From positions 1 to 46,845 of the forward strand of contig JAJZJF010000008.1 in the NCBI GenBank assembly GCA_021810245.1: 46,845 nt of DNA, written 5' to 3'. Of this stretch, positions 32,559-33,928 are shown piece by piece (position 1 is the stretch's first letter; every line of letters starts with the position of its first letter). Position numbers and translations under genes: made by a program. Origin of the DNA: a bacterium. GTDB taxonomy: Bacteria > Elusimicrobiota > Elusimicrobia > UBA1565 > UBA9628. The notes beneath the pieces are model-generated. The model had not been told where the DNA came from. It worked only from the letters and a program-made list of their open reading frames with translations, and did no database searches.

Positions 32559-33239
32559 TTAATCGCCATCGTCGGCCCCAATTTTAAAGGAGATAGCTTG
32601 ACGGATTTTAACCGCGACGGGCTTGTCACCAACATAAGCTGGGGTAAAGCGAAGGAGTTTTGCGGCTTTGATGGCTGCCGCGTCAAAATCGGAACCTCCG
32701 GATTTGACGAGGTTTACGCCGACGACATGTCCAGAGGAGTCCAAATGGATATCTAAGACGACGGTGGATTCAATATGCTTAAGCCGCGCCTGTTCCGGGT
32801 AGAATTTTTTGAGCAGCGCCTGAAGCTGATTGAGATTAACCAGTTGGGGATACCTTGAGACTTGAAGGCCGGTTCCGGAAGAGGCAGGGCCGGACCCTGA
32901 GCTCTTTGCGGCTAAAGGGTTAGGGTGGGGCTGGGGAATTTCCGCCGGAGCTGATTGCGTCTTTATCGCCGGAAGAGGCTTTTGTTGGGGAGATGGCTTG
33001 ACCCATTCCTTTTTGGGAATGGGTTTGGCCGCGGCATGAGGCGTTCCCGATTTTTTTAAAGGTCCCAAAGACACAGTTGAGGTCAGATCAATTTCCATCG
33101 TCGGTTTTTCCGCTGGCATCCAAGAGATTTTTCCCAAATTAAATAAAATTAAGTGGAACAAAAAAGACAAAGCCAGCATTTTCCACAGCAGGGTATCCTC
33201 ATCCCAAAAATGGGATTTGAAATCGCGCAAAAGGGGCAT
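32559..33239 (-). CDS. tonB: TonB-type energy transducer
   Basis: N-terminal TM, Pro/Lys-rich linker, C-terminal domain IESTVVLDIHLDSSGHVVGVNLVKSGGSDFDAAAIKAAKLLRFTPAYVGDKPVAVKIRQAISFKI. Confidence 0.9.
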   Translation of the reverse strand: MPLLRDFKSHFWDEDTLLWKMLALSFLFHLILFNLGKISWMPAEKPTMEIDLTSTVSLGPLKKSGTPHAAAKPIPKKEWVKPSPQQKPLPAIKTQSAPAEIPQPHPNPLAAKSSGSGPASSGTGLQVSRYPQLVNLNQLQALLKKFYPEQARLKHIESTVVLDIHLDSSGHVVGVNLVKSGGSDFDAAAIKAAKLLRFTPAYVGDKPVAVKIRQAISFKIGADDGD

Positions 33240-33248
33240 TTTACTTAG

Positions 33249-33529
33249 GCTCTGTGACAGAATAATATGGACATTTGGAGGCCCAGTGTTGCGACAATTT
33301 CGAGGCGCGACGAACGAGCATAGCTTAAGCTATGTGAATGAGAAGCAACGAAGAAATTGGCCGACAATGGGCCTCCCCTCAAGCGTTCTGTGTTCGAGAG
33401 GGGCCGCGCGCTTTCGGGCTGCAACTTCGTCGTTCGTCGCTCACATAGACTCGCTATGCTCGCTCCTCTCTCCTCGTTTTGCTCCAAAATCGCGCGGCCA
33501 AATTTGTTCATATTATTCTGTCACAGAGC
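33249..33529. mobile_element. MITE-like non-autonomous element, 281 bp, with 21-bp perfect TIRs and 5-bp CTTAG flanking duplication
   Basis: TIR GCTCTGTGACAGAATAATATG at 33249-33269 and its reverse complement at 33509-33529; CTTAG at 33244-33248 and 33530-33534; internal hairpins 33277-33376 and 33402-33499; no transposase ORF. Confidence 0.85.
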
Positions 33530-33928
33530 CTTAGGTTCGACTTCGGTGGCGACCTTAGAAATTCCGGCGCCTTTGAGCAAATCAAGCAAGTGGGCGACAT
33601 CGCCCCAGGAAACTTGCTTATCCGCGCCTAAGGTCACCTTGACATTTGGGTCGGCGTGAGCCATCTGCCCGAGATTGAGCGCGAGCTCTTCGGGAGTGAC
33701 CTTGACCTGGTTTAAGCGGAGAGTTTTATCGGCTGAAAGAGTGACATGCTGGCTGGGGGTCGGGGTTTCCTGTGAATGAGCCACGCGAGGCAAGCTCAGG
33801 TTTAAAGAACGGTGGGCGATTAAATGCGCGGTGGCCATGAAAATGATCAACAAGACCAAGACGATGTCGACTAAGGGAGTGACGTTGATTCCGGTAATCG
33901 ACTCTTCGTTTTCCGTTATTCCAGCCAT
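33521..33928 (-). CDS. exbD: Biopolymer transport protein ExbD/TolR
   Basis: ITGINVTPLVDIVLVLLIIFMATAHLIAHRSLNLSLPR; VTLGADKQVSWGDVAHLLDLLKGAGISKVA. Terminal codons lie in the MITE TIR. Confidence 0.93.
   Translation of the reverse strand: MAGITENEESITGINVTPLVDIVLVLLIIFMATAHLIAHRSLNLSLPRVAHSQETPTPSQHVTLSADKTLRLNQVKVTPEELALNLGQMAHADPNVKVTLGADKQVSWGDVAHLLDLLKGAGISKVATEVEPKAL

Follow-up and report, generated by a model that had tools for sequence, protein, structure and literature searches.

The window, a stretch of 46,845 nucleotides that constitutes contig C151 of a draft Elusimicrobiota genome (G000; 2.03 Mb in 152 contigs), carries exbD (33,521–33,928; Pfam PF02472) and tonB (32,559–33,239; Pfam PF03544) on its minus strand, and the Pfam matches agree with the identities first given to the two genes. 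Base 33,928 is common to exbB and exbD, as had been noted before. Between exbD and tonB, two genes of a TonB operon for iron or vitamin uptake, lies an element of 283 bp (33,248–33,530, no strand assigned) with paired inverted repeats, a duplicated TTA at its borders, an empty site in a sister species and many homologous copies elsewhere. Its left terminal inverted repeat, GGCTCTGTGACAGAATAATATG (33,248–33,269, plus strand), is 22 bp long, starts with GG and has its exact reverse complement in the right terminal inverted repeat (33,509–33,530, minus strand). The two copies of the TTA target-site duplication occupy 33,245–33,247 and 33,531–33,533 (plus strand). The interior is made up, on the plus strand, of hairpin arm A (33,277–33,376; GGAGGCCC...GGGCCTCC, with GCATAGCTTAAGCTATG at its apex), a variable linker with a small hairpin (33,377–33,401) for which two outer pairs are predicted and whose length differs from copy to copy, and hairpin arm B (33,402–33,499; GGCCGCGCG...CGCGCGGCC).

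The original prediction had described a 281-bp unit with perfect 21-bp inverted repeats, flanked by a 5-bp duplication. Direct reading confirmed the repeats and flanks as given: GCTCTGTGACAGAATAATATG stands at 33,249–33,269, its exact reverse complement at 33,509–33,529, and CTTAG at both 33,244–33,248 and 33,530–33,534. The inverted-repeat pair had no match in 100 shuffles with up to three mismatches allowed, which makes a chance origin negligible. Elsewhere, copies that share these ends vary in the bases at the place of the outer C and G of CTTAG, whereas TTA or TAA is duplicated (for example, GTTA...TTAC at locus L091 and ATAA...TAAC at L090); the unit is therefore 283 bp long, with 22-bp repeats and a 3-bp duplication. 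In the window, a host C before the TTA and a host G after it match the ends of the element and so mimic a 5-bp repeat. Thus, the insertion and its perfect end repeats stood, their lengths were revised, and the 5-bp duplication was rejected in favor of the TWA seen at the other copies. The inferred empty site is identical under either duplication.

That empty site, GAACCTAAGTAAAATG, which had been predicted from the window, was found exactly at the junction in sister genome G004, with 93% identity across the junction. The exbD-tonB junction is also empty in G002, with one base changed, and in G001 and G003 it is diverged yet uninterrupted; none of the four further congeneric genomes examined thus has an insertion there, and the contrary possibility, that sister genomes would carry the same spacer without empty sites, did not hold. 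ExbD ends in EPK-stop in G004, G002 and G003, which lack the insertion, whereas the exbD frame of the window ends in EPKAL-stop: the right inverted repeat supplies GCT CTG TGA, lengthening the C-terminus by two element-derived residues (Ala-Leu) and providing the stop codon, as anticipated. The insertion point lies just before the TAA of exbD, near the 3' end of the gene. The presence of an element inserted between exbD and tonB is confirmed, and the interpretation first given to it is supported. The start of tonB, formerly one base past the exbD stop, is now a few nucleotides from the duplicated TAA of the element, and the bases directly before its ATG (CCTAAGTAAA) are the same as before the insertion, because CC is by coincidence provided anew by the element end, and TAA by the duplication. 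Since 283 bp plus the duplication now separate the two genes, any translational coupling between them was, judging from the sequence, probably lost through the insertion. No outward promoter was found in the element, and its one weak terminator-like site is not above chance level.

In a blastn search with the element, 23 of 57 close genomes had matches, as did 54 of 295 sampled across Elusimicrobiota; the latter represent many families, and three of them lie outside the class. No match was found in plasmids and phages, nor in viral contigs in one exact-pattern scan. Many copies with target duplications are present in related genomes, and the window copy is therefore not a solitary one, as it might have been. 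Full copies are 263–286 bp long, have paired end repeats and occupy dispersed sites, with several subfamilies residing side by side within one genome. The outer ends are variable (GGCTCYGTGACAG, GGGCTCGCAACG, GGCGCTGTCAAG, GGACCTGCGTCA and others), and the conserved parts include AATAA and a large share of the interior. Among 60 paired copies, the duplication was TTA in 30, TAA in 29 (59 together) and TCA in one; the copy finder demanded equal 3-bp flanks, with T-N-A at first favored and later required and other cases uncounted, and the tally is a measure of consistency rather than an estimate of how frequently duplications decay. G000 harbors a second full copy, 82% identical and with a different end sequence, between pilT and rsfS (contig C86; L007, about 1376–1665), a site that is empty in G002 and G004. 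The upstream frame runs into this copy and stops inside its end (...VRNEII-stop). The copy has no clean TWA duplication, which counts against the explanation by a TWA-duplicating MITE. At L120 (around 350–630; G003, contig C24), the conserved interior is joined to quite different ends (TGTAGCGTTCCGAAAATAAC) with CTAG flanks, possibly an end swap onto the same core.

Alignment of 41 full copies (mean column identity 73%) yielded a consensus fold with an end-to-end stem formed by the inverted repeats, arm A, the small linker hairpin and arm B. The arms are covarying stems and inverted homologues of each other, and the element, compared from end to end with its own reverse complement, is 68% identical to it. 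At L041 (2001–2157; G004, contig C17), a short copy seems to have half of arm A joined to half of arm B near a CATAG palindrome, as template switching might produce. In the window copy, an 88-amino-acid open frame (33,245–33,511, minus strand) runs from an ATG in one inverted repeat to the duplicated TAA before tonB, and most reading frames are open 2–3 times more often than in shuffled sequences. A coding function was rejected; copy lengths are spread over all three phases, and no coding frame is conserved.

The strength of the structure (z -7.35) and the abundance of covariation, with at least one double compensatory change in 60 of 86 pairs, are what one would also see in a structured RNA, or in an element that regulates the operon in cis. 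Either of these, in place of a transposon, is nevertheless highly improbable: copies stand at unrelated sites with a duplicated TWA, and the empty sites in sister genomes largely refute the idea. When a structure acts as RNA from one strand, G-U pairs should be tolerated above A-C. For pairs predicted from both strands, 95% were Watson-Crick and G-T and A-C mismatches were nearly equal in number (43:45), which does not indicate a one-strand RNA, although transcription of copies from either strand could also even out the two classes and would blunt the test. Rfam gave no match for the window element; of six other loci, one had matches, all of them below threshold and attributable to chance. The absence of a strand preference in the changes within the arms fits a DNA structure better than a one-strand RNA, either a hairpin or cruciform or the outcome of palindrome correction in replication, which can produce the same compensatory changes without selection. 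The palindromic arms equally recall REP/RAYT-type repeats moved by a Y1 tyrosine transposase instead of a DDE enzyme, and low-copy Y1 genes (PF01797) occur in many of these genomes. G000 itself has a single RAYT-like one (L259, 1471–2109; contig C34), with no element copy near it, and one Y1 gene, in G005, adjoins a copy. However, this is the sole case among 15 Y1 gene loci, PF01797 had no match in G004 or in the copy-rich G003, and Y1 enzymes are not expected to come with target duplications or long inverted repeats. Y1 genes do not track the copies, the RAYT link is unsupported, and mobilization of this kind is very unlikely.

A full-length insertion sequence (IS) with the same inverted repeat, which the original prediction proposed to look for, was not found in the related genomes searched. 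A search of the ends in 22 loci disclosed no partner IS, and none of the matches listed showed two end patterns spaced as in an IS. That no autonomous element with the same ends was recovered counts against the MITE explanation, although such a partner is a usual rather than an essential trait of MITEs. Multi-copy IS assemble poorly in draft MAGs, and many of the genomes searched are draft MAGs, which limits these searches. The 3-bp duplication recalls the IS5 group with IS1031 and PIF-Harbinger, which make 3-bp TNA/TWA target duplications. However, PF01609 was absent from six copy-bearing genomes (G000, G001, G003, G004, G005 and G006) and PF13359 from all 57 genomes, and the ends were matched to no such IS; the element was therefore not classed as an IS5/IS1031- or Harbinger-derived MITE, the TWA duplication being shared but no transposase of the group with matching ends being found.

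Taken with the empty sites, the 60 paired copies with their duplications, the dispersed matches and the lack of a conserved frame, these comparisons lead us to regard the element as very probably a MITE-like transposon that is non-autonomous and that duplicated 3 bp, TWA, at its target. A transposase that is absent from, or unrecovered in, the window genome presumably acted on the 22-bp ends. Insertion with duplication of TWA at or near a stop codon would leave copies that are harmless and survive, and slippage between short repeats may then tend to remove the palindrome. The products would be palindromes of 33–55 bp or 19-nt one-end scars that act as spacer and start codon of the next gene.

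Many copies are positioned at the ends of genes. Compared with a control made up of every TAA or TTA site within 20 stretches from the genomes that hold them, with open reading frames (ORFs) called by a simple program, 15 of 55 copies were located exactly on an ORF stop codon, as opposed to 1.6% of control sites. With genome-matched expectation, 15 of 53 were exactly on a stop (1.31 expected) and 28 of 53 at a stop or up to 15 nt before it (2.73 expected); in this count the window copy was assigned manually to 'near stop', the caller having picked a spurious spanning frame. Every site counted is a separate place, although the sequences of related copies are not fully independent. Termination at these sites is either preserved by the duplicated TAA or taken over by a stop from the element end, and the upstream protein is consequently the same or changed by few residues. 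Survival of harmless insertions surely contributes to this location, and we infer that it is the main cause, possibly with a real target preference in addition. Active targeting beyond survival, a refinement compatible with the MITE explanation, is suggested by the copies that interrupt no called ORF, of which 15 of 37 lie exactly on a TAA stop (4.26 expected). We nevertheless consider it doubtful: selection also acts on intergenic promoters and leaders, so that gene ends could be favored by survival alone, ORFs were called in a simple way, and the C86 copy is at a gene end yet not on a TWA stop.

Shortened forms point to the fate of inserted copies. Minimal palindromes that consist of nothing but the two ends and retain the TWA duplication measure 33 bp (L186 and L195), 46 bp (L171) and 55 bp (L175), and a further one of about 45 bp is present in G001 (L276). 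On contig C67 of G000 (L008, 4463–4488), a one-end 19-nt scar separates genes that, from our reading of the sequence, we take to be glgP-like and RNase D-like, in the arrangement TAA-GGCTCTGTGACAGAATAAT-ATG, and the ATG of the inverted repeat is the start codon of the RNase D-like gene. The corresponding junction in G004 and G002 is TAAATG, and the insert is absent in G001 and G003 too. The same arrangement, TAA-19 nt-ATG, stands before two genes of G003, radA and one resembling an esterase (L277, 3000–3025, and L088, 3810–3834), indicating that the outcome recurred. Such scars likely arose by loss of the DNA lying between the inverted repeat's ATG and the ATG of the gene, the states seen at C67 being the empty and the scarred one.

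The literature searched, which was covered in part, yielded no description of MITEs in Elusimicrobiota, and a MITE-like family spread through this phylum is apparently undescribed. As passages of PMC10969869 describe them, bacterial MITEs such as Chunjie of Geobacter are likewise small and non-coding, have paired inverted repeats and a target duplication, and occur as many dispersed and partial copies, mostly intergenic. Compared with the MITEs of those passages, the present element differs in its 3-bp TWA duplication, GC-rich two-arm interior, enrichment at stop codons, phylum-wide occurrence and the lack of a partner IS among our searches. The 3'-UTR location of QMITE2 of Coxiella offers a precedent by description, although stop-codon precision is unmentioned in the passages of PMC10969869 concerned. 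CIR of Caulobacter and Brucella, likened here by description only, also have two long hairpin arms with a linker and a phylogenetically conserved structure, but are set apart from repeats with a stem between the 5' and 3' ends, such as the present element has, and carry the GANTC motif as their hallmark (PMC2229807). The Correia/NEMIS elements of Neisseria are similar in their inverted repeats of about 24 bp, near-gene insertion and long stem-loop in the transcript, and differ in their TA-type termini, promoter and IHF motifs and RNase III processing (PMC2229807). Since each trait has a precedent (the arms in CIR, the 3'-UTR location in QMITE2, the partial copies in Chunjie), the element appears, as far as these passages go, to belong to a known kind and to be unusual in the way its traits are combined.

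A wider scenario would have a phylum-wide family whose double-hairpin DNA is recognized by an undescribed transposase that actively targets TAA stops, spreading through compact genomes without breaking genes and leaving scars reused as start-codon regions; we consider this version unlikely as a whole. The family provides clean pairs of empty and filled sites from a little-studied phylum, and it exemplifies a mobile element of dense operons, in which the ends double as stop codons, the target duplication copies a stop, and remnants become the start-codon regions of downstream genes. The combination of covariation at the DNA level with a missing transposase poses a testable question: what moves the element.
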